In this document: positions 1-30,849 of the stretch, piece by piece
Layout of the letters: each line of letters opens with the position of its first letter
Numbering within the stretch: the stretch's first letter is position 1
Assembly (NCBI RefSeq): GCF_009792355.1
Contig: NZ_CP047045.1
Coordinates: 186,001 to 250,000 of the forward strand
Direction: 5' to 3'
From: Terricaulis silvestris
GTDB lineage: Bacteria > Pseudomonadota > Alphaproteobacteria > Caulobacterales > Aquidulcibacteraceae
Length of the DNA stretch: 64,000 bases
Position numbers and translations under genes: made by a program
Notes under the pieces: generated by a model
Seen by the model: the letters and a program-made list of their open reading frames with translations, nothing else
Database searches by the model: none
What the model was told of the DNA's origin: nothing

Positions 1-714
1 TCCGGAATTGCTCCACATCGCCGCAAGCCTGCCGATTATTTGGTGGACAAACCCGCCTCGGGGTTCGCCGAAGCGTTCCGCGTGCTGAAGACCTCGCTCA
101 TGCATGCGCGCGTGGATCGTCGGCTGAAAGTGTTGGCCGTCACGTCTGCGGTGCCAGCCGAGGGCAAAACCACGGTTTCGCTTTGCCTTGCGCGGATCGC
201 CGCGATGTCGGGCCAACGTGTCATCTTGGTCGATTGCGACTTGCGCCGGCACTCCTTGAGCGAAGCGGTCGGCGTCAGTCCAAGCCTTGGTCTGCTCGAC
301 GTGCTGTCAGGCGGGAGCGATTGGCGGGGCGCCGCGGTGCAAGACCCCGAGAGTGCAGCGCAATTATTGGCGGTGTTGCCCTCCAGGTTTAATCCCCGAG
401 ACGTGTTCGACTCGGTGGCGATGGAGCAGTTGCTGGACGATTTGCGCGCCCATTTCGATCTTGTCGTTCTCGATTGCCCGCCAGTGTTGGCGGTTGCGGA
501 GACGCGCACCGTGGCCAAACTCGCGGATCTGACCTTGATGGTGGTGCGCAGCGACAAGACGCCGACAACGGCGGCGCGAATGGCGATCCGGGAAATCTCG
601 CAGGCAGGGGCCGACATTGGTGGCGTGGCGCTGAATTGGGTGAACCCGCGGCGCCGCGGCGGCTATGGCGATACGCTTTATTACAGTTACGCGAGCAGCT
701 ATTATCACAGCTGA
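1..714 (+). CDS. Capsule/EPS tyrosine autokinase, C-terminal part (5' end outside window)
   Basis: The frame is open from base 1, so only the C-terminal cytoplasmic kinase part is present. It shows the bacterial tyrosine kinase (BY-kinase, Wzc/CpsD) signatures: a Walker A with AEGKTT, a Walker A' at VILVDCDLRR and a Walker B at LVVLDCPP. It ends in a tyrosine-rich tail (YYSYASSYYHS), the usual autophosphorylation cluster. In the family such kinases are often fused to, or encoded beside, a Wzz/CpsC chain-length domain and control EPS polymerisation and export through phosphorylation cycling. The position just upstream of the lasso cluster and EPS genes fits that role. Whether this one is fused to a Wzz domain cannot be seen. 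Confidence 0.9.
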   Translation, partial: SGIAPHRRKPADYLVDKPASGFAEAFRVLKTSLMHARVDRRLKVLAVTSAVPAEGKTTVSLCLARIAAMSGQRVILVDCDLRRHSLSEAVGVSPSLGLLDVLSGGSDWRGAAVQDPESAAQLLAVLPSRFNPRDVFDSVAMEQLLDDLRAHFDLVVLDCPPVLAVAETRTVAKLADLTLMVVRSDKTPTTAARMAIREISQAGADIGGVALNWVNPRRRGGYGDTLYYSYASSYYHS

Positions 715-750: not shown

Positions 751-2382
751 TTGCGGCTCCGTTGGGTCTTCGCGTTGACGCCCGAAGCACTGGACGATCT
801 GATAAGCGCGGTCCTTCGCAAGGAGGACGTCTCGTGGCTGTGCGCGGTTCAACCCGAAATCGACGCGGCATTTGTTCGGCGTGCGAGCGACCATGGCGTT
901 GTGCCGTTGCTGAACGAGCGCTTGGCTGGACGCTCCGATTGGCCAGCTTCAATCAAAGCGGCGCTTCGTCATGAGACCTTGGCTCAGGCCATGTGGGAAT
1001 TGCGCCATCATCAGGTGTTGACGTTGCTGTTTCAGGCGTTCGCCGGTCGCGGCGTCGAGCCGGTGGTCTTTAAGGGCGCAGCACTGGCCTACGACCTCTA
1101 CGCCAACCCAGTTTTGAGGACACGCGGGGACGCCGACATCATCGTCGCCTCAGAGGACCTCGAGGATTGTCGTGACACGCTCCGGTCGCAAGGGTTTCGC
1201 CTCGATCCGGCGTTACCCGGAGAGTTTGTGAGCCATCAGGAGAGTTGGACGCTGCTCGGCCCCGATGGGGACACGCATTCAATCGACCTCCACCGCAGGA
1301 TCAACAATTCGGAAGTGTTGTCTTCGCTTTTTAGCTACGCCGAACTTCGCGGCGTTGCCTGCCCAATTCCAAAATTTTGTGTTGGCGCCATGAGGGCAAG
1401 TCGCGTGCACGCGCTGCTTATCGCTTGCATGCATCGGCTGACCCATAGGCATGCGCCGTATTATTCCGACGGGGTTGCCCTTTATGGCGGCGACCGGTTG
1501 ATCTGGGTTTATGACTTTCACGTGCTTGCAAGTGCTCTCACGGGCGCTGAGTGGGCTGAACTCGTCTCAATCGCGCGGGAAAAAGGGCTGGCCTCTGTGT
1601 GTTTGGAAGCGCTGCATCTATCGGAAGCACGCTTCAATACCAATTTTCCCGAGCACGTTCGCGCTCAGTTGTCGCGCCCCGGCGCCGATGAACGCGCGTC
1701 GGTCTATTTGAGGAGTTCGTCGGCGCAACAGTTACAGTTGGATTTTTTTGCGCTCAGAGGTGTTGGAGCGAAGCTCCAGTTCGTTCGAGAAGTCACGCTG
1801 CCGCCTCCGGACTACATGCGCTCGAAGTATGCCGGCGCCTCGTTTTCATTGCTGCCCTGGCTTTATGTGCGCCGTGTGATCGAAGGCGCGGGCAAACGGC
1901 TCTTGGGTCCAAGGTCGCTCGATCGCGCCGCGCGCCCAACACATAAAAGGCGCATCGTGCTATGGGGAGAATTGGCCTGGTGGGAGCGCTTGCTGCTTGC
2001 GCGCCTTGTAGTGCTGCTGGCCTTGATCGGCACGAGCTTGCGCGTGATCGGATATAGCAAAACCCGCGCTTCGCTTGAACGCCTTTCTTCACCGCACTCA
2101 GACACACTCAATAGCGATGCGACGAATGCGGAGGCAATCGGGCGAATCGCCCGCCTGGTGAGCATTGCCGCCAATCATGGTCTTTATCGTGCAAAGTGTC
2201 TGCCCCAATCGCTGGCGCTTTGGTGGCTGTTGCGGCGCCGCGGAACGCGGGCGGAATTAAGGTTCGGCGTGCGTCGCGAACGCGACGAACTCGATGCGCA
2301 TGCCTGGGTCGAGTTCGATGGCGTGGTGTTGAACGGCGATGCGCGAGCGACGGAGCGCTTTGCGGTGCTCGAAACCTCGTGA
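751..2382 (+). CDS. Fusion: nucleotidyltransferase domain + lasso peptide B2 (transglutaminase-like leader peptidase) domain
   Basis: This 543-aa protein has two recognisable parts. Residues about 60-340 resemble the NTP_transf_5 family: a VVFKGAALA motif, then D127-x-D129 in RGDADIIV and a third acidic residue D179 in SIDLHRR. Residues about 405-543 match the lasso B2 (McjB C-terminal) cysteine peptidase. A hydrophobic helix is followed by C483 in KCLPQSLALWWLLRRRG, H517 in AHAWVEFDG and a nearby Asp (D530), with spacing close to the McjB Cys-His-Asp triad. B2 removes the precursor leader in an ATP-dependent way. The TTG start at 751 is preceded by GAGGGCGAGG; TTG at 775 is an alternative. 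It overlaps the cyclase gene by 4 nt (GTGA). What the nucleotidyltransferase half transfers is unknown. Confidence 0.85.
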   Translation: MRLRWVFALTPEALDDLISAVLRKEDVSWLCAVQPEIDAAFVRRASDHGVVPLLNERLAGRSDWPASIKAALRHETLAQAMWELRHHQVLTLLFQAFAGRGVEPVVFKGAALAYDLYANPVLRTRGDADIIVASEDLEDCRDTLRSQGFRLDPALPGEFVSHQESWTLLGPDGDTHSIDLHRRINNSEVLSSLFSYAELRGVACPIPKFCVGAMRASRVHALLIACMHRLTHRHAPYYSDGVALYGGDRLIWVYDFHVLASALTGAEWAELVSIAREKGLASVCLEALHLSEARFNTNFPEHVRAQLSRPGADERASVYLRSSSAQQLQLDFFALRGVGAKLQFVREVTLPPPDYMRSKYAGASFSLLPWLYVRRVIEGAGKRLLGPRSLDRAARPTHKRRIVLWGELAWWERLLLARLVVLLALIGTSLRVIGYSKTRASLERLSSPHSDTLNSDATNAEAIGRIARLVSIAANHGLYRAKCLPQSLALWWLLRRRGTRAELRFGVRRERDELDAHAWVEFDGVVLNGDARATERFAVLETS

Positions 2383-4259
2383 GCGGCATCGCGGGCATTA
2401 TCCGTTTTGACGGGGGACCGGCTGAGCCCGCGCTGGTGGAGCAAATGACGAGCGCCATGGCTCATCGTGGCCCTGATGGCGTCCATCATTGGTTCAACGG
2501 GTCGGTTGGGTTGGGTCAGTGCATGCTGCGCACGACGCCGGAATCTCTTGCCGAGAGCCAGCCGCTCGCCAACGAGGACGAAAGCGTCGTCCTCGTCATG
2601 GACGGTCGGGTCGATAATTGTCAGGAACTGCGGCAGGATTTGCTGAGCCGGGGCCTCCGGTTACGCGACGTGTCGGACGCGGAGCTGGTTCTCAGAGCTT
2701 ACGAGTTCTGGGGCGAGGGGTGCCTCTCTCGAATTGAAGGGGATTTCGCGCTCGTTATCTGGAACGCGAAAAAGCAGCGGGCGTTCTGCGCGCGAGACAG
2801 GCTGGGCAACAAGCCCTTTTATTATCATCGCGCTGTCGGCGGATTTTATTTCGCGTCGGAATGCCATGCGCTGCTCGCCCTGCCGGGCGTGCCTGACAGG
2901 TTGAACGAAGGCATGGTCGCGGAGTTTCTGACGGGGCGATGGTGCTCTATGGACGAGACGTTTTGGTTGGACGTTGCCAAGCTCCAGGCCTCTTACGCTA
3001 TTGTCGTCGATCAATTGGGCCTCCGCCTCGACAAATATTGGTCGCCAGATCTTCAAGCCTGCTTGGCCTACAAAGATGAGCGGCAATATGTCGAACACTA
3101 CCGTCAGCTCTTGACCACAATCGTGCGGCGCATGTGTCGTTCGGCGGCGCCTGTTGCGTGCGAAGTAAGTGGGGGATTGGATTCGTCTGCTATTTACGCG
3201 GTTGCCGAACGTCTGCGTCAAGACGGCAAGCTTCCTGCGCCAGCGCTCGACGGCTATACGTTGGACTTCGCGCACGACGCGGCTGCCAACGAGCTTACGT
3301 ACGCGCGTTCTGTCGCATCGCACCTTGGCCGCGAGGTCCGCGAGATCCCACCATCGCGTATGGAGTTTTCATGGTTCCAGGAGAGAGCCACTCGCTACAG
3401 GGAGTTTCCGTCGTATCCAAATGGCGCGATGGGTCTTGGCATAAGAGAAGCGGCGCGGACGCGGGGCAGCCGCGTCTTGCTCGTCGGCGTCGGTGGCGAT
3501 GAATGGCTTGGTGGCAGCCGGAGTTATTATGCCGAAGCGCTTGCTGAAGGATCACTTCGCAACCTTTGCACGGCTCTCGTTGCAGATACCCGGCATGCGG
3601 GTTTTCACGTGAGCCTGTGGTGGTTGTTGCGGCACGGGCTCTATCCGCTGCTGCCCAGCGCTGCTCGAGATTGTCTGCGTGACATGATCGATCCCGTCGA
3701 CAGGCGCAGAGAAGCCTGGCTGGCGCCAAGGATGACCAAATTGCTGGCGGAACGTCGTGCGCTGGTTGGCATCGCTCCAGACGCCAAGGCTCGGCGCGTT
3801 GGACAGCGGGAAATGGCGCTCACGTTGTCGGGCGCCTTTTCCAAACACGCGCTGGAGCTTGAGGAGCGCATGGCATCGGAAGTCGGGATCGAATTGCGGC
3901 GCCCTTTCTTCGACGCGAACTTGATCGAGTTCTGTTTCGCGCTTCCGAGACGCCTTCAGCTTCAAGGCGGTTCGGACAAATATCTACACCGCCGAGCAAT
4001 GGCCGACCTGCTGCCGCAACAGGTGGTCGAGCGGCAAGGCAAGGCTGAGTTCAGCGTGATGTTTCGATCGTATCGCGCCGACGTCAGCCGCGAGATGCGC
4101 CAAATGCGCACCGAGGAGACCAGAAGCTGGCTCAGCGAGAAGGCGATGGCGGGCGCCTTGGGGAAATATGGCGATGACCGCAACTCATCTTGGACGGACT
4201 GGCAGGTTTGGGCGCTGCTCGCGTGCGAGGCTGTTTCCCGGAGCGGCAAGCACACCTAG
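2379..4259 (+). CDS. Lasso cyclase (asparagine synthetase-like, C protein)
   Basis: This 626-aa protein has the asparagine synthetase B fold. The start is taken at GTG 2379 because it gives the family N-terminus SGIAGIIRF and overlaps the B2 stop by 4 nt. A longer open frame upstream is only a shadow of the B2 gene. The catalytic Cys2 of true AsnB glutaminases is Ser here, as expected for lasso cyclases, which use no glutamine. The ATP-pyrophosphatase loop SGGLDSS is at residues 264-270, and a GVGGDEWLGG segment follows. Family knowledge: the enzyme adenylates an Asp/Glu side chain of the core and closes an isopeptide ring with the new N-terminus. The partner precursor is encoded 185 nt downstream. 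Confidence 0.88.
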   Translation: MSGIAGIIRFDGGPAEPALVEQMTSAMAHRGPDGVHHWFNGSVGLGQCMLRTTPESLAESQPLANEDESVVLVMDGRVDNCQELRQDLLSRGLRLRDVSDAELVLRAYEFWGEGCLSRIEGDFALVIWNAKKQRAFCARDRLGNKPFYYHRAVGGFYFASECHALLALPGVPDRLNEGMVAEFLTGRWCSMDETFWLDVAKLQASYAIVVDQLGLRLDKYWSPDLQACLAYKDERQYVEHYRQLLTTIVRRMCRSAAPVACEVSGGLDSSAIYAVAERLRQDGKLPAPALDGYTLDFAHDAAANELTYARSVASHLGREVREIPPSRMEFSWFQERATRYREFPSYPNGAMGLGIREAARTRGSRVLLVGVGGDEWLGGSRSYYAEALAEGSLRNLCTALVADTRHAGFHVSLWWLLRHGLYPLLPSAARDCLRDMIDPVDRRREAWLAPRMTKLLAERRALVGIAPDAKARRVGQREMALTLSGAFSKHALELEERMASEVGIELRRPFFDANLIEFCFALPRRLQLQGGSDKYLHRRAMADLLPQQVVERQGKAEFSVMFRSYRADVSREMRQMRTEETRSWLSEKAMAGALGKYGDDRNSSWTDWQVWALLACEAVSRSGKHT

Positions 4260-4355
4260 TCCGAAAATCAGTACAAACGACCTACCGGACGGACCGCGCG
4301 AGACACTAGAGGCTTTCGCCGGTAGGCGCGCCAAGCTCGCGGCCATGCCCATACG

Positions 4356-4385
4356 TTGACCCGCGAACGACTTTTCAGCTATAAA
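4356..4385 (+). promoter_or_regulatory. Candidate sigma-70 promoter for the lasso precursor gene
   Basis: TTGACC (4356-4361) is separated by 18 nt from TATAAA (4380-4385), about 60 nt before the precursor ATG. The surrounding 4260-4444 stretch carries no gene and is more AT-rich than its neighbours. A separate promoter would allow the precursor to be made in excess over the enzymes encoded upstream. Prediction from motif only. Confidence 0.5.
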
Positions 4386-4444
4386 ATTAGCGGTTGATGG
4401 CTGCGGTAATCTAGCCAAATTGTTTGGAAGGCAGGGGCGCTAAT

Positions 4445-4603
4445 ATGAAGAACCAAACACACAATGACCCCGCGAACGCGCCTCCAGCCAAAAAGCCCTA
4501 TGTTCGTCCAGAGTTGCGCACGTTCGGCGCTTTGCACAAATTGACGCAAGGCTCAATGAGCGCTGGCAACGACGGTGCGGGCGGCATGACGGCGATGATG
4601 TAA
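4445..4603 (+). CDS. Lasso peptide precursor (A)
   Basis: This 52-aa peptide has a textbook lasso leader: Y19xxP22xL24xxxG28xxxxxT34, where T34 is the penultimate leader residue. The predicted core (residues 36-52) is GSMSAGNDGAGGMTAMM. Gly1 is the N-terminal nucleophile and Asp8 (residue 43) the ring-closing acid, giving an eight-residue macrolactam. The tail is nine residues, rich in Gly and Met, with no aromatic plug residue. The ATG follows a purine-rich GGAAGGCAGGGG stretch. The gene lies between the cyclase and the methyltransferase genes (13 nt to the latter). Ring size and cleavage site are inferred from the family pattern. Confidence 0.85.
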   Translation: MKNQTHNDPANAPPAKKPYVRPELRTFGALHKLTQGSMSAGNDGAGGMTAMM

Positions 4604-4616
4604 TCCGGCTCGCGCG

Positions 4617-5735
4617 ATGCTCAGTGAGCACCTGGGCTATTTGCAAGACCGTCGCCGTCTCGCACGCTTTAAAGAGGCGATTGCGAGTGTGGTGCAACGC
4701 GGCGACCGGGTCGCTGATCTGGGATGCGGGTCTGGCCTTCTGGGGATGATGTGTCTGCAGGCCGGCGCCACACACGCATATGAGATCGAATCCGAGCCAA
4801 TAATCATTGCCGCGCGCCAAAGCTTTGAACGCGCGGGGCTCGCCGACAGAGCGACGTTTCTGCGGACGAGGTCGTTTGTCGCCGAACTTCCCGAGCCCGT
4901 GGACCTAGCGATATGCGACCATGTTGGCTATTTCGGTGTCGATTACGGCATATTGGAATTGCTGCGCGACGCGCGAGACAGACTGTTGAAACCCGGCGGT
5001 AGATTGGCGCCGGCGGGTTTGAAACTCTACCTCGGCGCCGTTCAATCGCCCACGTGCCGCGACAGCGTAGACGCGTGGAGCAACCCGGAGATTCCGTCGG
5101 AGTTCCGTTGGCTTGGCCAGCACAACATCAACACCAAGCATTCGGCGAAGCTGGAGCCCGACCACCTGCTGAGTGCGCCCGTCGAGTTGTGCTATTTGGA
5201 TTTTTATCAGGATCAGCCCGACTTTTTTTCCTGGACGGCTGAATTGCGAATTTCGAGAGATGGCGTTTTCCATGGGCTCGCAGGTTGGTTCGACTGCAAG
5301 CTTGCTGATGATGTGTGGATGACAAATTCGCCGCTATCGGATGAGGCGATCGACCGTCAGCAAGCATTTTTCCCGATCAGCGAGCCGGTCGAGGTGAGGG
5401 CCGGCGCGTTGGTGACGGCAAAGGTCAGGACGCGGCCCGACGATCACATGATCGCTTGGACCGTGGAATTTCCGGCGACAGGTCGCACGTTCAAGCATTC
5501 GACGCTGGACGGCATGGTGTTGGATGCGGGTGACTTGATGCATGGGCTACCAGAGCGAGTGCCGCTCTTGAGCCCGGAGGGGCGGGCGCGCGTTACCGTG
5601 CTCAGTTATTGCGACGGCCGCAGAACGGCGCGCGAGGTGGAACAGGCAGTGCTTGCTGAGCATCCGATGCTGTTGCCGTCCAAACGCGAGATTTCCAGGT
5701 TTGTTGCGAGCGTACTCAGCAAAGACGCAACCTAA
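4617..5735 (+). CDS. PRMT-like SAM-dependent methyltransferase with C-terminal PqqD-like tail
   Basis: This 372-aa protein has a class I SAM site at VADLGCGSGLLGMM (about residues 34-47) and acidic residues in AYEIESE. The segment CDHVGYFGVDYGILELLRDA, followed by LLKPGGRLAPAGLKLYLGAV, aligns with protein arginine methyltransferases. The diagnostic PRMT double-Glu loop is not kept: the first Glu is Asp and the second position is not acidic in the same register. The predicted core has no Arg, so another acceptor is likely. The last ~65 residues (from about PLLSPEGRARVTVLSYCDGR) look like a PqqD-type winged helix, which could bind the leader. The gene lies 13 nt after the precursor and its TAATG stop/start overlaps the kinase-like gene. 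Tailoring of the lasso peptide is inferred. Confidence 0.75.
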   Translation: MLSEHLGYLQDRRRLARFKEAIASVVQRGDRVADLGCGSGLLGMMCLQAGATHAYEIESEPIIIAARQSFERAGLADRATFLRTRSFVAELPEPVDLAICDHVGYFGVDYGILELLRDARDRLLKPGGRLAPAGLKLYLGAVQSPTCRDSVDAWSNPEIPSEFRWLGQHNINTKHSAKLEPDHLLSAPVELCYLDFYQDQPDFFSWTAELRISRDGVFHGLAGWFDCKLADDVWMTNSPLSDEAIDRQQAFFPISEPVEVRAGALVTAKVRTRPDDHMIAWTVEFPATGRTFKHSTLDGMVLDAGDLMHGLPERVPLLSPEGRARVTVLSYCDGRRTAREVEQAVLAEHPMLLPSKREISRFVASVLSKDAT

Positions 5736-6589
5736 TGGATGATTTCCTCAAGCGTCCGGCGGTTGCGCAGCCGCCGATGCAAGGCGCTCCATTTCATACT
5801 TGGTCATTTGATGATGGTGCGCTTTGGACGGCGTTTTATCGGATCGAGGGCGGTTATCTTCTGCGCTTTCCAAGCTTGGCGGACTTCCAGATTTGCCGGC
5901 AGGGCGGCCAAGTGATTTGCACGCCCGCCCCGGACGCCTCCGAGGCTGATATCGAGCATCTCTATCTCAACCAAGTCTTGCCGCTGGTGTTGAGCGCGCT
6001 GGGCACGCCCGTGTTTCACGCCAGTGCGGTTGAGCTGTGCGGAGGTGCGGTTGCTTTCGTTGCGACGACGGGGCGGGGTAAGTCCACTTTGGCCGCGGCC
6101 TTTACGGTTGCTGGCAACAGACTGATGACGGACGACAGTCTCATTCTAAGCGAGAGGGACGGTCAGTACGATGTCATTCCTAGTCACCCGTCCATCCGAC
6201 TGTGGGAAGACAGCCTAGGCGCCATTTTGCCGACCGGGCTCCAGCCGACCCCGAGCTTAAGCTTCACGAGCAAGTCGCGGTTCAATGCCGGTGGCCAGAT
6301 TCCTTATGGCGATCAGCCGCGCCGGTTTCTTGGCGCGTACTTTCTGGGGGAGGCGATCTGTGAGGAGATCTTGCTCCACCAACTGAGCGAGGCGGAAGCC
6401 CTGCGCGAATGGACCAAACATTCATTCTTGCTGGACGTCCAAGACCGGGACAATCTGCGCGAGCATTTCGATCGGGTGTCGACGCTCGCCGCCGCCGTGC
6501 CGTGCTTTCGTTTGGACTATCCGCGGCGGTTCGCGGAGCTGGAACGCGTTCGCGATGCGGTCAGTGAAAAAACAGCGGCGCTGGTTTGA
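5735..6589 (+). CDS. HPr kinase-like protein of the lasso cluster
   Basis: This 284-aa protein has an HprK-type P-loop TTGRGKST (G113-T118), preceded by FHASAVELCGGAVAFVA and followed by the LMTDDSLIL acidic motif of the HprK/PadeK family. It lacks the N-terminal HPr-binding domain of classical HprK. In some lasso clusters (paeninodin type) such kinases phosphorylate a C-terminal Ser. Here the core ends in Met-Met, so that exact reaction is not available; Ser2, Ser4 or Thr14 of the core remain possible. The gene shares one base with the upstream methyltransferase stop and is 3 nt from the PqqD gene, so co-translation is likely. Confidence 0.8.
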   Translation: MDDFLKRPAVAQPPMQGAPFHTWSFDDGALWTAFYRIEGGYLLRFPSLADFQICRQGGQVICTPAPDASEADIEHLYLNQVLPLVLSALGTPVFHASAVELCGGAVAFVATTGRGKSTLAAAFTVAGNRLMTDDSLILSERDGQYDVIPSHPSIRLWEDSLGAILPTGLQPTPSLSFTSKSRFNAGGQIPYGDQPRRFLGAYFLGEAICEEILLHQLSEAEALREWTKHSFLLDVQDRDNLREHFDRVSTLAAAVPCFRLDYPRRFAELERVRDAVSEKTAALV

Positions 6590-6592
6590 GCC

Positions 6593-6877
6593 ATGGATAT
6601 GAGCATTCGATACGAGATCTCTGACCAGGTCATCTCGCGCGAAGTTGGCGAGGAGGCAGTCATCCTCGACTTGGAGTCGGGCACATATTTTGGTCTGGCG
6701 ACGACCGGCGCACGCATCTGGCAACTCATCGGGCAGGGTAAAACCCTTCAAGAAATTTGCGACCTTGTTGCAGGCGAATACGAAGTCTCGCGCGCTGAAC
6801 TCCTCCATGATCTCATTGCATTGGCTCAGGATTTGACCGCGCGCGGCGTCATTCGCGCGCGCCCAAGCAACGCGTGA
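6593..6877 (+). CDS. PqqD-family leader-recognition protein (lasso B1 / RRE)
   Basis: This 94-aa protein of the PqqD fold contains ISREVGEEAVILDLESGTYFGL, then ARIWQLIGQGKTLQEICDLV, a short winged-helix RiPP recognition element. In lasso systems with a split B protein, B1 binds the YxxPxL leader motif and delivers the precursor to B2. It closes the + strand lasso operon, 3 nt after the kinase-like gene. An ATG two codons downstream (6599) is an alternative start. The following 254 nt (6878-7131) hold no gene. Confidence 0.85.
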   Translation: MDMSIRYEISDQVISREVGEEAVILDLESGTYFGLATTGARIWQLIGQGKTLQEICDLVAGEYEVSRAELLHDLIALAQDLTARGVIRARPSNA

Positions 6878-7131: not shown

Positions 7132-7911
7132 ATGGACGCTGCTGCAAGACGTCACGATGAGGCGTGGGCGAGCCCTACGCCGGCCGATGCAGGCTCTTGC
7201 GGCATCGCGGAATCGAGCGAATTGGGAAAGCTGACCGCTGAGCCGGTTGCCATTGCGCTGGCCATTTCAAGCGCGCCGTTCATTTCACCGGTCGACCATG
7301 TGGCCCGGCGAACCCCAGCCGAAGCCAAGCCAAAGGCGCCCTTGTTTCGGGCGATCAAACGGTGCCTCGACATTGTGATTGCAGCGTTGGGCTTGTTCAT
7401 GCTTTCGCCGATAATGGCGATGATCTGGACCGCGGTGATCAGCACAAGTCGCGGTCCTGCGATCCATCATTCGTCCCGCGTCGGTCGCCACGGCCGCATC
7501 TTTCTAATGCCGAAATTTCGAACCATGAATTCGGATGCGCCAGTGTGTGCACGCGAAGCATTGCAGGGCAGCGAGCAGCGCATTACTCGCGTCGGAAAAT
7601 TTCTTCGGCGCACGGGACTCGATGAGTTGCCTCAACTCCTCTGCGTTCTGAGTGGCGAAATGAGTCTCATAGGACCCAGGCCCTTGCTCGCAGATGATCC
7701 CGGCGCAAGCGAACGGACGAAATTTCCGGGCGCGCTCGAAGTCAGACCTGGCATTAGCGGTCTGGCTCAAGTCAGTGGCCGCAACTCAGTTCCGGCGCGC
7801 CGCAAAGCGCGGCTTGACGCCTTCTACGCGCGTGCAAACTCGCTGGGGTTCGAACTCGTTCTACTTGTTCGAACCATCGGCGTCATCATCAGCGGCAAAG
7901 GGTTTATGTGA
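7132..7911 (+). CDS. Bacterial sugar transferase (phosphoglycosyl transferase, EPS priming)
   Basis: This 259-aa protein has a low-complexity N-terminal extension of about 75 residues. It is followed by the PF02397 core: one hydrophobic hairpin (CLDIVIAALGLFMLSPIMAMIWTAVI), then PKFRTMNSD, LRRTGLDELPQL with the catalytic Asp-Glu dyad, GEMSLIGPRPLL and RPGISGLAQVSGRN. Such monotopic enzymes start repeat-unit assembly by moving a sugar phosphate onto undecaprenyl phosphate at the inner membrane. This is the only priming enzyme seen in the locus. The preceding intergenic sequence is AT-richer (7045-7110) and may carry a promoter. Confidence 0.92.
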   Translation: MDAAARRHDEAWASPTPADAGSCGIAESSELGKLTAEPVAIALAISSAPFISPVDHVARRTPAEAKPKAPLFRAIKRCLDIVIAALGLFMLSPIMAMIWTAVISTSRGPAIHHSSRVGRHGRIFLMPKFRTMNSDAPVCAREALQGSEQRITRVGKFLRRTGLDELPQLLCVLSGEMSLIGPRPLLADDPGASERTKFPGALEVRPGISGLAQVSGRNSVPARRKARLDAFYARANSLGFELVLLVRTIGVIISGKGFM

Positions 7912-7984: not shown

Positions 7985-8482
7985 GTGGCCAGACACTGGT
8001 ACGTTGCTCGCGCAAAAACAGGCAAGGAAGACTTGGCCGCGGTCAATCTTCGCCGCCAGGGCTTTGAAGTTTTTCTGCCCTGTTCTTATCGAACCATTCG
8101 ACACGCTCGAAAGATCACGACGATACGCGCGGCGTTTTTCCCGGGCTATCTATTCGTTGCAATCGATGTCGAACATGAGCGTTGGCGCTCGATCGACGGG
8201 ACGATCGGTGTCATGGGGCTGATCAAGGCCAATGATCGCCCGTTGGCGACCCCGGCTGGTTTGGTGCAAACGCTGATCGCCGCCAGTGGCGCCGATGGCA
8301 TGCTCGACTTGTCGCGTTCGCTGAGGCCAGGAGCTGCGGCGCGCGTGATTGGCGGTCCTTTCGCCGATCAGCTCGCCATCGTCGAGCGAATGACCGGGCC
8401 TGATCGCGTGCGTGTGTTGTTGTCGATCATGAACCAGACCGTGCCGGTCGAAGTGGAACGTGGTGCGCTTGCGGCGATCTGA
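7985..8482 (+). CDS. NusG/RfaH-like specialised transcription antiterminator
   Basis: This 165-aa protein begins ARHWYVARAKTGKEDLAAVNLRRQGFEVFLP, the NusG N-terminal domain of RfaH/UpxY-type factors. It continues through FFPGYLFVAIDVEHERW, and has a KOW-like C-terminal domain (PGAAARVIGGPFADQLAIVERM). The open frame extends further upstream, but GTG 7985 with AGGGG upstream gives the family start; the upstream part overlaps the sugar transferase. Family role: accompanies RNA polymerase to prevent premature termination in long polysaccharide operons. The main glycosyltransferase operon lies on the opposite strand, so action there would be in trans. Confidence 0.88.
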   Translation: MARHWYVARAKTGKEDLAAVNLRRQGFEVFLPCSYRTIRHARKITTIRAAFFPGYLFVAIDVEHERWRSIDGTIGVMGLIKANDRPLATPAGLVQTLIAASGADGMLDLSRSLRPGAAARVIGGPFADQLAIVERMTGPDRVRVLLSIMNQTVPVEVERGALAAI

Positions 8483-11638: not shown

Positions 11639-13408
11639 TCACGTCACAAGCGCGGCACTGACGGCGTGGGTCCGCTCGACAAAGTGTTCGCCTATCACCA
11701 GCACATCCATCTGTGTGCGCAAGAAGCAATCAAGCGCCTCTTCTGGACGGCAGACGACAGGCTCATTTTCGTTGAAACTCGTATTGAGCACTATCGGCAC
11801 GCCCGTGATTTCATGGAAGGCGTCGATCAATTTGGCGTAACGCGGGTTGGTGTCGCGGTTGACGCTCTGGAGTCGCCCTGAACCGTCAACATGGGTGACC
11901 GCGGGAAGTTGGGCGCGCTTCTCCTCGCGAATCTGGAACACCTGCATCATGAACGGCACCGCGTCGTCTTCCTCAAACCACGCGCCGACGTATTCGGCGA
12001 GGACCGAGGGCGCGAAGGGTCGAAAGCTTTCTCGCCGCTTGATCTTGGCGTTGAGAATTTGCTTCATATCGCCCCTGCGCGGATCACACACGATCGAGCG
12101 GTTTCCGAGGGCGCGAGGGCCCCATTCCATTCTGCCTTGAAACCAGCCAACCACTTTCCCGACCGCTACTGCCTCTGCGGTGCGGCGACATAGTGCTTCC
12201 TCGTCAACAAGCCTTGCGACGGTGCAGCCAGCGGCGTCCAACTCCGCTTGTTTGCTCTGAAGGAGCGCCGCGCAGGTGGCGTCGCCAAAGGCCGGCCCCC
12301 AATAGGCATGATCCATGACAAAATGGCGGGCGCCGCCCTGTTCGTGCCAGACCGCGAACGCCGCGCCGATCGCGCCGCCAGCGTCACCTGGCGCCGCATG
12401 AACGTAGACACGTTTGAATGGGGTTTGACGGCGCACCTTGCCGTTGGCGACCGAGTTATTGGCGCAGCCTCCGGCAAGCACAAGATCAGTGATGCCGGAC
12501 TCGTTCTGCGCGGCGGCGATAAGGTGAAAGAACGCCTCTTCATAGAGCGCTTGGGTTGAGCGGGCCAGATCACGATGCCGTTGCATGAGCGGGTCGTCGG
12601 GCTTGCGGCGCGGGCCGAGCAAGGCCTCCAGTTCCTCGGCGAATAGATCGCCAAAGACGGGTGACCCGTTCTCCCATTGGTAGGGCACGTACTCTTTGTG
12701 ATGCCTGAAGTACTTTAGGTTAAGCGCGAAGCGTCCCTTGTCTTTCAAGACGAGCATGTCACGCACTCGGTCCACATACCGGGGCTGGCCGTAGGGCGCC
12801 AGGCCCATCACCTTGTACTCATCGCCGTAGTGCGCAAATCCCAAAAACTGCGTCATCGCTTGATAGAAGATGCCCAGCGAGTGCGGGAAATAAATTCTGT
12901 CGTTTATGTCTATCTCGACGCCGCGCCCGATGCCCCAGGCGGCGCTGGCAAAGTCGCCAAATCCATCAACCGAGATGGCCACTGCTTGCTCAAACGGCGA
13001 GACATGGAATGCCGAAGAGAGGTGCGCGAGGTGATGTTCGACCGCGTGCGTCTGCCCTTTGAAGTGTTGACCGGGATAGATTTCCTCCAAGAGTTGGGCC
13101 GCACTTGCTCGTTTCTTGCGCGTCGACAGGCGATCGATCACCATCGCCATGCTTGGTCGTTGCCGCAGCAGGAACTCCGCGCGACGCCAGTTGTTGGCGC
13201 TGCTGTCTTGATTGACAGCGAGATGAGAGATGTCGCCAAGCGATGCGCCTGCCTCTTGTAGGCACCACTTTATCGCCTCCGACGGAAAGCCAGCCCAGTG
13301 CTTAATCCGGCGAAAGCGTTCCTCTTCAGCTGCAGCTATGAGCTTGCCATCGGAGACAAGGCAGGCGGCGGCATCAGCGTGAAAGGCGTTAAGGCCCAAG
13401 ATTAGCAT
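11639..13408 (-). CDS. Carbamoyltransferase (NodU/CmcH family)
   Basis: This 589-aa protein is of normal family length. The N-terminal Kae1-like domain begins MLILGLNAFHADAAACLV and contains AVEHHLAHLSSAF, with the metal-binding His residues, and GGCANNSVANGK. The C-terminal domain has GRMEWGPRALGNRSIVCDPR and PIVLNTSFNENEPVV. Such enzymes use carbamoyl phosphate and ATP to O-carbamoylate sugars or antibiotics, so an O-carbamoyl decoration on the polysaccharide is likely. It overlaps the upstream glycosyltransferase gene end by 20 nt. Confidence 0.93.
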   Translation of the reverse strand: MLILGLNAFHADAAACLVSDGKLIAAAEEERFRRIKHWAGFPSEAIKWCLQEAGASLGDISHLAVNQDSSANNWRRAEFLLRQRPSMAMVIDRLSTRKKRASAAQLLEEIYPGQHFKGQTHAVEHHLAHLSSAFHVSPFEQAVAISVDGFGDFASAAWGIGRGVEIDINDRIYFPHSLGIFYQAMTQFLGFAHYGDEYKVMGLAPYGQPRYVDRVRDMLVLKDKGRFALNLKYFRHHKEYVPYQWENGSPVFGDLFAEELEALLGPRRKPDDPLMQRHRDLARSTQALYEEAFFHLIAAAQNESGITDLVLAGGCANNSVANGKVRRQTPFKRVYVHAAPGDAGGAIGAAFAVWHEQGGARHFVMDHAYWGPAFGDATCAALLQSKQAELDAAGCTVARLVDEEALCRRTAEAVAVGKVVGWFQGRMEWGPRALGNRSIVCDPRRGDMKQILNAKIKRRESFRPFAPSVLAEYVGAWFEEDDAVPFMMQVFQIREEKRAQLPAVTHVDGSGRLQSVNRDTNPRYAKLIDAFHEITGVPIVLNTSFNENEPVVCRPEEALDCFLRTQMDVLVIGEHFVERTHAVSAALVT

Positions 13409-25323: not shown

Positions 25324-27159
25324 CTAGCTAGGCAACGCAGCGGGTGTTTCGTCGCTTGAAGAAGAGCGTGCCCAGACTTCGCAGGCCCATGCGCGCGATG
25401 CGGCGCCCTTACTCTGCGCAATCGCGTGCGCCGAATGGTCGATCCACCCGCCGATCGGCACGCCAAAGCCACTCTTTGGTCGGTCCGTGACGGATACGGG
25501 CAGTGGCGTTGATGGCGCCCTGGCGAGAGCGCGCTTGCCGACCCCGGGCTTGAAGCGTGAAATCACCGGGGCAATTGAACGCAGCAATTCAGAATCGACG
25601 AGAGGTACGCGTATTTCAAGGGAATGAGCCATGCCCGCCCAATCGGCATCTCGCAACAACTGGTTGCGCATGTAATTCGCGCTCTCGAGTGCGGCAACGC
25701 GCGAGATTGGTTCTTTTGGATCTGGATGCATGCTTTGTTTGAGTCGGCGAATTGGTGCGAGTCGGCGTAGGCCGTGGCGCACCAATTCGGGATCGAGAAC
25801 GGTCTTCAAGTCGAAGGGGAGAAAAAGTCCCCTGCGCAACAGATACGCTCCGGAGTATGTGCCGCCATATTCAAGCATTGCGACCGCTTTCGGCGATTGT
25901 TTTGCGACCCCAAGAAATCCCAACAAGGCGCGAGTGGCGATGCCGGCTCCTGGGATCTTGGCCGGCAGCGCAAATAAATTCACCCAGCGTGGAAGGTCGC
26001 GGAAGCTTGGATACCCTGCAAATATTTCGTCACCGCCGAGTCCCGAGAGCGCAACCTTCAAGCCGACCTCTCGAGCAGCTTTGGCGACGAACCAGGTGTT
26101 GATTCCATCGATCGACGGTTGGTCCATCGCCTGAAGGATGGCGGGGAGGTCGCTCTTGAACTCTTGGTGCGACACTACTCGCACAATGTGTTCAGCTTGG
26201 TAGAGTTTTGCAACGTCACGAGCCAACGGCACCTCGTCTTCCGTGCCTCCGCTGAATTCCTCAAACGCCAAAGTGACTGCACGTATCTCGTTCTGCCCGG
26301 CATCGCGCATCAGGCCAAGAAGCGCACCAGAATCGACTCCGGCGGATAGGAAAACTCCAACTTCAACATCCGCCAGCAGGTGTGCCCTCACGCTGTCGAG
26401 TGTCGCGACCGCAATTCGATTTATGGCTTCGCCTGCCGGAGCAGGATTACTCGCCCCCTCCGCTAGCAGTTGGGCGATCGATGTATATGCCTTAGGCTCG
26501 CGTGGCCCCGCCGCGTCGATGTACTGGGTGTGCCCAGCCGGCAGCGCACGGATGTCGCGGTAGAGGGTGAACGGTTCAGGGACGCTGCCCCAGAGGTGAA
26601 ACCCGACAATGCCGGCGGGCTCCGGATCGCGGCTGACCTTGCCGCCGGCGAGCAGTGCCTTTACCTGACTTGCGAAGCGGAAACTCCAACCATCATTCGC
26701 CGTGTAGAGCGGCTTGATGCCATATGGATCTCTCGCGAGGAAAAGGCTGCGCTCGGTCGTATCCCAAATGGCAAACGCGAACATGCCTCGCAAACGATGC
26801 ACCATATCTGCGCCATGGCGTTCGTAGAGGTGAAGAAGTGTCTCGGTGTCAGAGGTTGTCTTGAACCTGACACCCGACGACTCCAGATCAATGCGCAGAT
26901 CTGGGTGGTTATAAATCTCACCGTTGAAGACGATGACGAAGCGACCGTCACTGCTTTCCATCGGCTGAAGCGCGCGCTCGGACAAATCGATGATCGAAAG
27001 CCGCCTGTGGCCGAGGCAAAGTCTTGTATCGTCGCTCCACCATTCTCCCACGCCGTCCGGTCCCCGGGCACGCATGTAGTCGCGCGTTGCGACGAGTTCA
27101 GTCTCGTGCGGAGGTCCCGCGGACCTATTGTAGGCGAAAATGCCATTTATCCCGCACAT
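25324..27159 (-). CDS. asnB: Asparagine synthetase (glutamine-hydrolysing), EPS-associated
   Basis: A 611-aa protein with an intact class II amidotransferase N-terminus MCGINGIFA (Cys2 present), RGPDGVGEWW, HRRLSIIDLS and FNGEIYNH. The synthetase loop is FLSAGVDSGALL. This contrasts with the lasso cyclase at 2379-4259, where Cys2 is lost. AsnB homologues in O-antigen/EPS clusters (WbpS-like) are thought to amidate uronic acids; with the neighbouring UDP-sugar dehydrogenase this is a reasonable role. Plain asparagine synthesis cannot be excluded. A 104-nt gap precedes it. Confidence 0.88.
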   Translation of the reverse strand: MCGINGIFAYNRSAGPPHETELVATRDYMRARGPDGVGEWWSDDTRLCLGHRRLSIIDLSERALQPMESSDGRFVIVFNGEIYNHPDLRIDLESSGVRFKTTSDTETLLHLYERHGADMVHRLRGMFAFAIWDTTERSLFLARDPYGIKPLYTANDGWSFRFASQVKALLAGGKVSRDPEPAGIVGFHLWGSVPEPFTLYRDIRALPAGHTQYIDAAGPREPKAYTSIAQLLAEGASNPAPAGEAINRIAVATLDSVRAHLLADVEVGVFLSAGVDSGALLGLMRDAGQNEIRAVTLAFEEFSGGTEDEVPLARDVAKLYQAEHIVRVVSHQEFKSDLPAILQAMDQPSIDGINTWFVAKAAREVGLKVALSGLGGDEIFAGYPSFRDLPRWVNLFALPAKIPGAGIATRALLGFLGVAKQSPKAVAMLEYGGTYSGAYLLRRGLFLPFDLKTVLDPELVRHGLRRLAPIRRLKQSMHPDPKEPISRVAALESANYMRNQLLRDADWAGMAHSLEIRVPLVDSELLRSIAPVISRFKPGVGKRALARAPSTPLPVSVTDRPKSGFGVPIGGWIDHSAHAIAQSKGAASRAWACEVWARSSSSDETPAALPS

Positions 27160-27263
27160 TTCATCATCCGAACGTTGATGCCGCCGCTCACTAGAGCCTG
27201 CGTATGGACCTGCGCGAAACTACGCCGACTCGCTGTGGTGCGATCAAGTTCGCATATCTTAGT

Positions 27264-28598
27264 TCAGGCCCGAACGACGCGAGCCATGTTCGCGCCCGCT
27301 CGCGCACAGGCGTTACGGGTATCGATCACAAGTTTGGCGACATCGGCTAACAGTTTGTAATCCACACCGTCGTGATCGGTGGCGATCAATGCTGCATCGT
27401 AACTGGCTAGTTGGGCAGGGTCCCACGCGACGGATTTGCGTCCGACGAGAGCAGGATATTCGCGCACCTTCGGTATTTCTGGAGCATGGGGATCGAAGTA
27501 GTCAGTCGAGCACCCGCGCGCTTCGAGCAGATCTATGAGCCGTAGTGCCGGGCTTTCGCGCGTGTCATCGACATTCTTCTTGTATGCGAGACCCAAGATA
27601 AGGACGCGTGCCCCGTTGAGGCCCTTGCTGAACCGAGCGTCCAATGCATCGGACAAGACGCGCACGACGTGCCAGGGCATGTCCGAGTTGATTTGTCCTG
27701 CGAGCTCAATGAAACGCGTATGCTGATTATATTCCCGCGCCTTCCAGGTCAGATAGAACGGATCGATTGGAATGCAGTGACCGCCCAGACCAGGTCCCGG
27801 ATAGAAGGGCATATATCCGAATGGCTTTGTCTTTGCGGCCTCGATCACTTCCCAAATGTCGATACCCATCGCGTCAAAGACCACCTTGAGTTCGTTCACA
27901 AGCGCGATGTTGACTGCTCGAAAGACATTTTCGGTGATCTTGACAGCTTCGGCAGTGGCCGTGGAGCTGACGGGGACCGTTTTTGGAACGACGGTCCCGT
28001 AGAGCTCAAGGGCAATAGCAAGCGAACGTTCGTCGTCGGCGCCAACCACCTTCGGAATACGTGCGGTCGAATGGTCGATGTTTCCGGGATCTTCGCGCTC
28101 GGGAGAATACGCAATGAAGAAGTCGACACCGGCGCGGAGTCCTTTTCTTTCCAGCAGAGGCTTCATGACCTCTAACGTAGTTCCAGGGTAGGTCGTCGAC
28201 TCCAAGATTACGATTTGGTTTGGTCGCAATCGAGATGCGATGGCCTCGGTCGTATCTACCACATACCTGAGGTCAGGCTCATGGTGGCGGGTGAGGGGCG
28301 TTGGAACGCATATTAGCAGCGCGTCCGGCTCGTCCAGCCGTTCAAAGTGAGAAGTAGCCTCGAACCGACCGTGCTTTCGCATTTCGGCAATTCGCTCATT
28401 GCCTATGTGATTTATGTAGCTTCGGCCTTCGTTGAGCGCTGTCGTCTTCTCGTCATCTATATCAAAAGCAAGCACCTTGAAATTCGCGGCGCCGAAGGCG
28501 ACCGCAAGCGGCAGGCCCACGTATCCCATTCCAATGATGCCCACGACGAAGTCGCGACTCTGGATTCGGGAAAGTAAATGATGGTCCATTGTGATCAA
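27264..28598 (-). CDS. wbpA: UDP-N-acetylglucosamine 6-dehydrogenase-like nucleotide-sugar dehydrogenase
   Basis: A 444-aa protein with an NAD-binding GIIGMGYVGLPLAVAF. It has VPTPLTRHHEPDLRYV, ILESTTYPGTT, the YSPEREDPGN segment typical of the WbpA/WecC group, and the catalytic-Cys motif GPGLGGHCIPIDP. It ends with LGLAYKKNVDDTRESPALRLIDLL. Oxidises C6 of a UDP-HexNAc to the uronic acid in two NAD steps. Start at 28598 or three codons later (MDHHLL). First biosynthetic gene of the EPS operon, 97 nt downstream of the nucleotidyltransferase gene. Assignment to UDP-GlcNAc rather than UDP-Glc rests on motif resemblance. Confidence 0.88.
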   Translation of the reverse strand: MITMDHHLLSRIQSRDFVVGIIGMGYVGLPLAVAFGAANFKVLAFDIDDEKTTALNEGRSYINHIGNERIAEMRKHGRFEATSHFERLDEPDALLICVPTPLTRHHEPDLRYVVDTTEAIASRLRPNQIVILESTTYPGTTLEVMKPLLERKGLRAGVDFFIAYSPEREDPGNIDHSTARIPKVVGADDERSLAIALELYGTVVPKTVPVSSTATAEAVKITENVFRAVNIALVNELKVVFDAMGIDIWEVIEAAKTKPFGYMPFYPGPGLGGHCIPIDPFYLTWKAREYNQHTRFIELAGQINSDMPWHVVRVLSDALDARFSKGLNGARVLILGLAYKKNVDDTRESPALRLIDLLEARGCSTDYFDPHAPEIPKVREYPALVGRKSVAWDPAQLASYDAALIATDHDGVDYKLLADVAKLVIDTRNACARAGANMARVVRA

Positions 28599-28695
28599 TG
28601 CTCAGCTTTCGGCGCTACGGGTATGACTCTGGTTGATACAGACCTGCAGGCTATTCGACACGGAACGGTTGGCGTCGCGCCCCGTGCTGACGCCG

Positions 28696-29694
28696 TCATG
28701 CGGATGTCCGCACGCCAACGACCCGAGTTCGGGAAGGTAGATGGCGCCACCTGACAATGCGACCGAGCCAACGCAAGGGCACGTTTATCATAGGATCAGT
28801 ATATTGAAGCCTGATGCGAAAATACTGTGCCTTGATCCACATGCGCGAACCGACGTGATTTGGTGTCTCAGCTGCTGCAATGCGCGTCGCTGCTGCGAGT
28901 TGGATCTCGACAACGTCGAGCAGGAATGGCGTTGGGCAGGCGGTCGCAAGGAACGACCAATCAATTCTTGCCGCGGCCCTTGTTAGCTTGGCGATATCGA
29001 TCAAATGGCGCAGGTGGAAATTGCCCATCCAAAAATCGCCGTCGATTATCTGGTCATGCAGGCTTGTGACCAAAATCTGCAATTCTGAACGCGGGAGTTT
29101 TGCTCTAAAATCGCCGACGCTGACCGGTTGGCAGTGGGCATGCAAATTGTCGACTTCCGCAATTCCAACCGGACAGGGCGGCCGGTCATGCAAATCGATA
29201 GAGCCTGCGTCTTGCTCGCGTCCAAGAACTGCGATTGCGTGGTCTTCGTCGGTCTCGTGATCTTCGAGCAGAAGAAACCCAGATCGCATCAAAGCGTCTC
29301 TTGCGCGTCGTCCTTCTGATGGCAACACAAGCAGATCTAGATCCAAGACCATTCGATCGCCGTTAGGCTCAAGGATCGCGCCGTCGCATGCGCACCACGT
29401 AGCACAACCTTTTAAAAGAACCGGCTCAATCCCAACCGCGTTGAGCGCCGCCAGCGCATCCTTCAAGGTCCCGAACAGACTGACGTTGCGCTTGAGGTTT
29501 CTCCTGTACACTTCAGCGAGAAACGTTCTCACCTCCTCTGGAAGCTCTTGCTTCGACGTCGCCAGGAGTGGGTAGAGTTCTGACGTGATCAAGGCGTCGT
29601 TGGCCATTGACAAGATTGCGGTCCAGTCGGCGTTCGAAGGAACTTGACCACGAAGGCACGTTGAAAGCTGCGAGAGCGCTCGCCTTCTATTCAT
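28696..29694 (-). CDS. Nucleotidyltransferase-family protein (stand-alone)
   Basis: A 332-aa protein of the same NTP_transf_5-like family as the N-terminal half of the B2 fusion at 751-2382. It has PVLLKGCATW, D118-x-D120 in MVLDLDLLV and D168 in SIDLHDRPP, the three acids expected of a polymerase-beta-type active site. Its substrate is unknown. It overlaps the PqqD-HprK gene by 8 nt and completes a three-gene set with it and the Tat-signal peptide. Members of this family recur next to HprK-related kinases and PqqD-like proteins. Confidence 0.75.
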   Translation of the reverse strand: MNRRRALSQLSTCLRGQVPSNADWTAILSMANDALITSELYPLLATSKQELPEEVRTFLAEVYRRNLKRNVSLFGTLKDALAALNAVGIEPVLLKGCATWCACDGAILEPNGDRMVLDLDLLVLPSEGRRARDALMRSGFLLLEDHETDEDHAIAVLGREQDAGSIDLHDRPPCPVGIAEVDNLHAHCQPVSVGDFRAKLPRSELQILVTSLHDQIIDGDFWMGNFHLRHLIDIAKLTRAAARIDWSFLATACPTPFLLDVVEIQLAAATRIAAAETPNHVGSRMWIKAQYFRIRLQYTDPMINVPLRWLGRIVRWRHLPSRTRVVGVRTSA

Positions 29695-30823
29695 GCACGA
29701 CTTTTTTTATTAGAGCGACAGCGTCAGCAAGGCCGTCATAGACAAACCGTGCGCACGTGGCGTTGCTGAGGTTGGTGGCCAGCCCTTCGATTGTTTGGGC
29801 ACTGACAGAGTGGCGCGTTGAGTAGCCGCTCTCAAGAAGGACGCGCAGTGCCTGAAGCGGGGTCAAGCGGTCAAGGCGCGCATCGACGCCCTGAGTACGA
29901 TGGAGCAGCAACACCACGTCGATTGGCTGGGGGCCTTCATTGTCCAAATCAACTGGCACGACGTAGCGCGTTCGTTTTCCGTCGTTGCGTTCGTAAATAG
30001 GAAGGTCCTCGAGACCAGTGACGTAGTTACCAAGCAACCGCCAAGCGTCAGACTTCGCGGCAGCGGCGAAAGAAATGCCTGAAGCAGTTCCATCGGCCTC
30101 GATCTGAACGATGTCGTCACCTCCATAGGCAAAACCGCTTGCGGCCAAAGCCAAGGTCAACGTGGTCTTTCCAGCGCCGGGCGCGCCGCTTAGCAACACG
30201 CGCTTGCCTTTGAGCGAGACCAGTGCCGCGTGGGCCAAGAAGCCTCCGTGGACAGAGGCGCAATAGGCTTCGGTAAGCAGCGCCTTCAAGCGGGGTATTG
30301 TTTGAGTCCGTGGCGCCATCCCCACCGGCGCATCACCAACGAAGAGGTAATCAGTGCCTTTGCGTCCGACGATGCCAATCCGCTCGTGAGGCGTCGCGTT
30401 GTCGTGCGCAAAGTGTCCAAACGCCGCTTCGGCAGATTGCAGATCAGCATCGCCGACGAAGCAGAGCTCGGCTGCAAGCGGTCCTATTCGCAGAGCTATC
30501 GAGGTCGGACACGAGTCGGAGTACTCGGCCATGATCTCTTGGGGGACAAGGTGACCAAGGCGCAGCCATTGGTCCAAGAGAGGCGTTACGATTGCCTCCG
30601 CATCTCGTCGCGATGCGCCGATACCTTCAAGGCGCTGGACCGCGGACTTCAGGTCAAAACCGGCAGCAAGTTCGTCCCAGATAAGTCGTGCGGTGCTGTT
30701 GAGTTCGAATAAGGCTTGGGTGCGCTCACAGAATAACGCCGTGCTCGATCCAACGGGCACGGCGCGCAATCTAGGCGACCTTGTAAACCTCCAGCTAAGC
30801 GGAAGGTCCGACTGGTCCATCAA
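29687..30823 (-). CDS. PqqD-like domain fused to HprK-related kinase
   Basis: A 378-aa protein. Residues about 10-95 look like a PqqD domain: VPVGSSTALFCERTQALFELNSTARLIWDEL, then SAVQRLEGIGASRRDAEAIVTPLLDQWLRLGHLV. Residues about 185-330 are HprK-like: GGFLAHAALVSLKGKRVLLSGAPGAGKTT (P-loop 213-221) and FAYGGDDIVQIEADG. It resembles the HPr-rel-A type kinases known beside PqqD-like chaperones; here the two are one polypeptide. The adjacent gene 26 nt upstream encodes a small exported peptide that is the natural candidate substrate. No phosphate acceptor is proven. Confidence 0.78.
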   Translation of the reverse strand: MMDQSDLPLSWRFTRSPRLRAVPVGSSTALFCERTQALFELNSTARLIWDELAAGFDLKSAVQRLEGIGASRRDAEAIVTPLLDQWLRLGHLVPQEIMAEYSDSCPTSIALRIGPLAAELCFVGDADLQSAEAAFGHFAHDNATPHERIGIVGRKGTDYLFVGDAPVGMAPRTQTIPRLKALLTEAYCASVHGGFLAHAALVSLKGKRVLLSGAPGAGKTTLTLALAASGFAYGGDDIVQIEADGTASGISFAAAAKSDAWRLLGNYVTGLEDLPIYERNDGKRTRYVVPVDLDNEGPQPIDVVLLLHRTQGVDARLDRLTPLQALRVLLESGYSTRHSVSAQTIEGLATNLSNATCARFVYDGLADAVALIKKVVHE

Positions 30824-30849
30824 TACTCACAACAACGAAAATCGCCGAC

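Follow-up and report, generated by a model that had tools for sequence, protein, structure and literature searches.

Several lasso peptide systems that carry a peptide kinase have been described, and they provide the closest comparison for the locus reported here. HprK-like kinases, and 'in several cases' fusions of the leader peptidase B2 with a nucleotidyltransferase, have been reviewed for phosphorylated lasso peptides (PMC8498205). In the pseudomycoidin (psm) cluster of Bacillus pseudomycoides, PsmK phosphorylates the peptide and PsmN is needed for placing a hexose on the phospho-Ser, the product bearing a phosphorylated, hexosylated Ser (PMC9266682). BsfK of Bradymonas sediminis, helped by B1, adds phosphate to Ser3 in the ring of a Gly1-Asp8 core, and the same source notes phosphorylated lasso precursors with Ile/Val(-2) in Acidobacteriaceae and Sphingomonadales (PMC10368454). 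Paeninodin-like clusters of Bacilli hold a kinase, separate B1 and B2, and the cyclase C, and often lie in capsular polysaccharide loci; the roles of paeninodins and of linear polyphosphorylated peptides (LPPs) are stated there to be unknown (PMC13381572). Here we describe a lasso gene cluster at positions 751-6877 of a 64-kb stretch of Terricaulis silvestris NZ_CP047045.1 (the window, whose positions are used throughout). On balance we favour the reading that it is a Cys-free lasso cluster, working like the kinase-bearing clusters of pseudomycoidin and Bsf and embedded in an exopolysaccharide (EPS) operon.

Like psm, the window cluster combines lasso genes with an HprK-like kinase and a nucleotidyltransferase (PMC9266682, PMC8498205). 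It differs in adding a methyltransferase (MT) like protein arginine methyltransferases (PRMTs), in the fusion of the nucleotidyltransferase to B2, in having no exporter nearby, and in a predicted phosphorylation site within the ring rather than at a C-terminal Ser. Paeninodin leaders are nearly always of the WxxP form and no methyltransferase is mentioned in the available part of that paper (PMC13381572), whereas the window leader reads YVRPEL and the cluster has one; the paeninodin acceptor is a C-terminal Ser, whereas the window core ends MTAMM. The Bsf cluster shares A, B1, B2, C, K and N and a Gly1-Asp8 core with the window, and departs from it in its exporter D, the absence of an MT, a leader with Ile(-2) instead of Thr, and Ser3 instead of the predicted Ser2 (PMC10368454). 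StspM and LihM resemble the window MT as S-adenosylmethionine-dependent tailoring enzymes of lasso clusters; StspM, however, is a C-terminal carboxyl methyltransferase modelled on mitomycin O-methyltransferase, and the cellulonodin/lihuanodin enzymes are homologues of isoaspartyl methyltransferases (PMC9266682), whereas the window MT has a PRMT fold. The leader peptidase of LPPs is a SipW-like signal peptidase; the window cluster has lasso B2 and C instead. The initial annotation called the tailoring set unusual, which holds for the PRMT-like MT, not found in lasso clusters in the literature searched (largely without subscription journals; the one match was a preprint on another antibiotic), and fails for the B2-nucleotidyltransferase fusion and the HprK-like kinase, both published (PMC8498205). 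Neither the fusion nor the kinase is new, and the same holds in Bacilli for the capsule link; as a variant of the kinase-bearing lasso clusters, this one draws interest through the PRMT-fold MT, the repeated EPS setting and, in relatives, precursors fused to a Peptidase_S74 domain.

The precursor A (4445..4603, 52 aa) reads MKNQTHNDPANAPPAKKPYVRPELRTFGALHKLTQ followed by the predicted core GSMSAGNDGAGGMTAMM; its leader ends YVRPELRTFGALHKLTQ, the cut point being predicted by the Thr(-2) rule. In its strict form, Y..P.L...G.....T.G, the leader pattern, which had been described as perfect, occurs once in the six frames of the window and in none of 60 simulated windows. A YxxPxL leader, Thr(-2) and an Asp or Glu 7-9 residues into the core are found here and also with 20 cores from clusters of a second family, f15 (sphingomonads, at a guess). 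The window core is Cys-free, with a macrolactam ring predicted between Gly1 and Asp8, and S2, S4 and T14 are its sole candidate acceptor residues. Across 21 predicted cores (the window's and those of 19 f15 clusters, one with two precursors; S74-fused cores were cut before SD), Gly1 is invariant, the ring Asp stands at position 8 in 16 and at position 9 in five, and Ser2 is present in 20, the remaining core having Ser3. Met is abundant in the core tails, making up 26% of residues from position 10 onward versus 4% at positions 1-8, and Arg is absent from 16 of the 21, window core included. Four cores, belonging to three clusters, have no Ser/Thr other than Ser2 as they were cut, so a kinase acting on core Ser/Thr must use Ser2 there; this pattern of conservation points to Ser2 as the likeliest kinase target. 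Nine Acidobacteriota cores differ (Gly1 in three, Ser2 in two), and the reasoning on Ser2 therefore holds for the f15 type only.

All six lasso genes lie on the + strand, where the initial annotation had placed them. The first (751..2382, 543 aa, TTG start) is the proposed B2-nucleotidyltransferase fusion, with NTP_transf_5 at aa 40-296 (E 1.5e-33), Transglut_core3 at aa 440-541 (6e-24) and a lasso_biosyn_B2 match above that model's own cut-off (5.5e-26). In family alignments B2 retains its Cys and His (14 rows) and NTP_transf_5 its KG..DxD. The cyclase C (2379..4259) contains Asn_synthase and GATase_7 domains and an SGGLDS motif; its N-terminus reads VSGIAG, hence the absence of Cys2, as had been claimed. 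Among NCBIfam models the lasso cyclase scores highest (397 bits, short of its cut-off of 525), and a generic asparagine synthase model passes its own cut-off (305 bits against 267). We also considered C as an EPS amidotransferase of the XrtA/PEP-CTERM type and rejected this, given 397 bits for the lasso model versus 240, no Cys2 and the presence of a precursor; an EPS-type asparagine synthase with Cys2 occurs elsewhere in the window (25324-27159). The kinase K (5735..6589) matches HprK_rel_A weakly (4.1e-12, below cut-off), and the P-loop is present in 29/29 rows with the DD motif retained, in line with the HprK-like assignment made earlier. B1 (6593..6877), the leader-binding RRE, is confirmed as PqqD-like (1.6e-18), with lasso-specific B1 models below their cut-offs. 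B1, B2 and an asparagine-synthase-type C are thus present together. The genes had been described as overlapping by 1-4 nt throughout; this is correct for B2/C (4 nt) and MT/K (1 nt), while C and A, A and MT, and K and B1 are separated by gaps of 185, 13 and 3 nt. The 185-nt gap before the precursor gave no sign of a conserved RNA element (z -0.11), and promoter and terminator scans yielded nothing above chance.

The gene set is conserved in f15. The MT query matched 50/385 genomes of the class at 1e-10 (the window's own included), with full-length relatives (42-45%) in only three other class genomes, all of f15; within f15, 10/397 sampled genomes matched at 1e-40, as did 15 of 40 genomes in one genus, and together these searches gave 19 distinct MT clusters. 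No MT relatives were found on plasmids at E 1e-20. C, MT, K and B1 follow the window's order on one strand in all 19, and a lasso-type precursor lies between C and MT in every one, so that conservation of the small gene, a point on which the lasso assignment had been said to hinge, supports it. NTP_transf_5 is encoded on the opposite strand, downstream in 18 clusters and elsewhere in L077; B2, where present, lies upstream on the opposite strand. In the phylum of L020 (a Pyrinomonadaceae genome; Acidobacteriota), 27/297 genomes matched the MT at 1e-20. Of the Acidobacteriota neighbourhoods read, with 20 fetched stretches chosen by score from 31 places, 13/21 pair the MT with other lasso genes, in looser arrangements than f15 (the MT lies some way from C or on the other strand in L122, L124 and L126), and the other eight, with an MT and no other lasso gene in reach, were not counted. 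In a FastTree tree of 29 MT rows, which leaves out the partial MT of L189, the window falls outside the f15 group (0.93) and separate from Acidobacteriota. The B2 half of the window, however, matches L020 at 44% over 139 residues, compared with 36% over 71 residues for L052.

The MT itself (4617..5735) matches PRMT_C (2.6e-9) and PRMTs of solved structure, the best of them at 2.6e-20 (5fub), bearing out the PRMT-like label with a PRMT fold and barrel by sequence, and it aligns with PRMT2 across 270 residues. It shares with PRMT2 and PRMT6 the fold family and the PRMT_C barrel, and differs in an extra C-terminal helical domain, a core without Arg and the loss of the double-E loop, in which Asp101 and Tyr110 replace the two Glu in the alignment. 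The PRMT double-E loop binds arginine. Both Glu are kept in only two of the 29 MT rows readable there, L117 and L118, whereas the window and every f15 row that can be read at that point carry CDH[VI]G...DYG. Arginine methylation by the window MT was considered and thought unlikely, the double-E loop being lost and the core lacking Arg; the enzyme is probably not an arginine methyltransferase. Precursor leaders do contain Arg. The L117 and L118 clusters (Acidobacteriota) have three precursors, each with at least two Arg, e.g. AAFGSTRADRIGPRPNRFSR; Arg is likewise present with L115, whose MT has one Glu, and with L113, whose MT has none. These small numbers fit an MT family that started as arginine methyltransferases and then changed acceptor. 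The window MT would be a PRMT fold acting on a new acceptor. Separately, L117 and L118 offer a natural control for true arginine methylation. The C-terminal helical domain (~aa 318-370) could serve in leader recognition; it resembles PqqD weakly (E 0.04 on the L020 relative, match probability 13%, model mean pLDDT 58).

In 6/19 f15 clusters (L053, L071, L072, L181, L182 and L185) the precursor continues from the core into a Peptidase_S74 domain, a phage-type chaperone, which begins about where other cores end; the Pfam match is E 4.3e-8 on L053 (9428-9787) only, the other fusions being assigned by likeness. A search of the order, in which 6/336 genomes matched (one with a leader only, one with a plain precursor), added L205:1498-1893 (-), part of a C-A-K-B1 cluster whose genome gave no MT match at 1e-40, and L206:1456-1872, for which the 3.4 kb read holds no biosynthetic gene and an MT cluster lies elsewhere in the genome. 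In endosialidase (S911/K916) and MYRF (S587/K592) the cleavage dyad consists of a Ser and a Lys five positions further along (PMC8326128, PMC3742440), and 8/8 S74-fused precursors keep both. If cleaved ahead of the dyad Ser, the six cluster precursors would yield Met-terminated cores of 15-17 residues, and those of L205 and L206 cores of 23 and 25 residues. The S74 domain of these precursors is short and, by eye, the C-terminal coiled coil seems absent; in MYRF that coiled coil drives trimers and cleavage needs trimers, which speaks against simple self-cleavage. S74 clusters occupy two places on the MT tree, and a nearby B2 is missing in 5/6 of them versus 1/13 others (p 0.003, relatedness ignored); the three S74 genomes inspected have one B2 each, elsewhere. 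We found no report of a lasso peptide with endosialidase or Peptidase S74 in the literature searched (largely without subscription journals), and as far as that literature shows, these would be the first lasso precursors to carry a C-terminal protein domain that can be removed. As a separate observation, L113 contains at ~14104 (+, locus coordinates) a second precursor-like open reading frame (ORF), whose leader has Ile(-2) and whose core reads GGGGMMNDGGGVMSRG..., continuing into a longer frame; this may encode a further precursor extended at its C-terminus.

The EPS setting noted in the initial annotation is clear in the window and recurs elsewhere. The cluster begins 36 nt past the 3' part of wzc, an EPS tyrosine kinase gene (1..714, +; AAA_31 8.7e-11; eps_transp_fam 1.9e-39, below cut-off); the full Wzc-like gene is longer and starts before the window, which includes its C-terminal portion, and polysaccharide-export-like genes (named by eye) lie upstream of it. 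It is followed by an EPS priming glycosyltransferase (PGT; 7132..7911, +; Bac_transf 4.2e-52) and an RfaH/NusG-like antiterminator (7985..8482, +; RfaH model 1.4e-26, below cut-off). As EPS markers within ~20 kb we took genes for Wzy/ligase, a priming transferase, Wzc or dTDP-rhamnose, using profiles built, like the other gene profiles, from sequences of these same clusters. Such genes lie beside 18/19 f15 clusters (nine among the first ten and, as read from the listing, all nine of the rest) and beside 6/13 Acidobacteriota MT clusters. Controls were lasso-B2 loci of f15, for which 20 of 76 B2 places were taken by hand at about every fourth row, skipping MT clusters; leaving out L178, a distant B2 that belongs to an S74 genome, gave 19. 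EPS genes were present at 0/15 kinase-less loci, three of which showed no cyclase in the stretch, and at 2/4 kinase-bearing ones, with a glycosyltransferase-like neighbour outside the marker list at L159, a kinase-bearing locus, left uncounted. For 9/10 f15 clusters against 0/15 controls Fisher p is 5e-6, but the f15 clusters have inherited a common neighbourhood, and independent support comes instead from how varied the EPS genes are across window, f15 and Acidobacteriota. The arrangement of lasso cluster and EPS locus recurs in two distant phyla, and EPS linkage looks like a trait of kinase-bearing lasso clusters as a whole, with or without an MT.

An alternative is an ordinary secreted lasso peptide, antibacterial or signalling, whose genes came to lie by chance in a variable EPS region gathering acquired genes. 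EPS loci are places of gene gain, presence is sporadic (as in the genus with 15/40 genomes), the window alone in its order has the MT in full length, and an MsbA-like exporter adjoins B1 in 8/19 f15 clusters. Against it, two phyla show EPS linkage involving differing sets of genes, and such linkage is reported for paeninodin-like clusters in capsule loci of Bacilli (PMC13381572), while the kinase-less lasso-B2 loci show none. We consider chance placement of a secreted peptide unlikely, though the strongest of the alternatives. Further from probable is decay of an acquired cluster whose product is no longer made in this strain. The earlier reading that no ABC exporter is visible stands, no MsbA-like match being found in the 64-kb window (own profile, E 1e-3), and the cluster described as complete is so for A, B1, B2 and C and not for export; with the cluster isolated in its order and the MT of some relatives apparently interrupted, decay gains some ground. 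However, all reading frames in the window are intact with catalytic motifs retained, and L053, L071, L072, L074 and L075 likewise show no exporter in the stretch read. We judge decay very improbable. The lasso cluster is real and probably works.

Several points weigh against our reading of a working kinase-bearing lasso cluster in an EPS operon. The window has no exporter; the cyclase and kinase profile matches fall short of cut-offs and the PqqD-like assignment of the MT tail is weak; Arg does occur in 5/21 cores; the Ser2 site and the non-arginine acceptor are drawn from conservation and nothing else. The 19 EPS counts, given the shared neighbourhood, are not independent events. In the window's order MT matches occur in 3/249 genomes, two of them partial at 30%. 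Finally, the MT gene seems interrupted or shortened in 5/19 f15 clusters (L072, L077, L187 and L188 for the tail, L189 for the N-terminal half, each absent or out of frame), so the MT may be dispensable, and this slightly lowered our confidence; same-type lasso clusters without an MT also exist (L205 and L207; 3-kb stretches), which argues against a key role for it. Gene identities, motifs, conservation of precursor and gene set, and EPS linkage are direct observations.

Under the favoured reading, B1 would bind the YxxPxL leader and the kinase would phosphorylate the linear precursor, most likely at ring Ser2; the PRMT-fold enzyme would methylate a non-arginine acceptor, with the C-terminal carboxylate, Asp and phosphate as candidates. 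The B2 half would then cleave after ...LTQ, C would join Gly1 to Asp8, and the NTP_transf_5 half would place a nucleotidyl or hexosyl group on the phosphate. Phosphorylation, leader cutting, cyclisation and sugar transfer are modelled on characterised relatives. We would expect a product that is probably phosphorylated and methylated and perhaps sugar-decorated, with calculated [M+H]+ values of 1527.57 for the lasso, 1541.59 with a methyl, 1607.54 with a phosphate and 1769.59 with phosphate and hexose; the Ser2 site, the non-arginine acceptor and action in or on the polysaccharide envelope are our own proposals. A product serving the cell surface is plausible. A broader version, in which a cross-phylum lasso branch serves the polysaccharide envelope, the Ser2 phosphate linking lasso to sugar or EPS, the PRMT fold being re-tasked and a self-cleaving S74 setting the C-terminus in relatives, we regard as doubtful; of it, the eight S74-fused precursors are seen in sequence, self-cleavage and an EPS conjugate being hypothetical. 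With a conserved ring serine and a lasso precursor at polysaccharide loci in two phyla, the envelope hypothesis is testable by deletion.

The kinase, nucleotidyltransferase and MT might instead act on the polysaccharide or its carrier, with the lasso genes an independent neighbour, and NTP_transf_5 and HprK-like genes do lie beside the Cys2-containing asparagine synthase in the same EPS locus (25324-30823). Yet homologues of the kinase and NTP_transf_5 modify lasso precursor or product in characterised clusters (PMC9266682, PMC8498205, PMC10368454), the NTP domain of the window is fused to the lasso peptidase, and A, MT, K and B1 occur together in 19/19 f15 clusters; we hold a polysaccharide substrate to be improbable.

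Other features of these loci deserve mention. Three f15 loci (L167, L174 and L175) have a lasso-type B2 and no cyclase in ~19 kb, possibly representing other peptide families; the B2 of L175 is accompanied by NTP_transf_5 and an ABC transporter. The window EPS locus encodes a carbamoyltransferase (11639-13408, -) with BLAST relatives in three Acidobacteriota lasso-MT loci (L020:2826-4619, L110 and L116). It also holds a second peptide-kinase module on the minus strand (25324-31098), comprising a PqqD-HprK fusion (29687-30823), NTP_transf_5 (28696-29694), a UDP-sugar dehydrogenase, the asparagine synthase with Cys2, and a small ORF (30850-31098) with a Tat-like signal (by eye) and a Gly/Asn/Asp/Met-rich tail. 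The small ORF was found in 2/60 genomes of the family, the window's own included, the other being L056, where the order is alike by eye. This module may be a Gram-negative counterpart of the LPPs of Bacilli.

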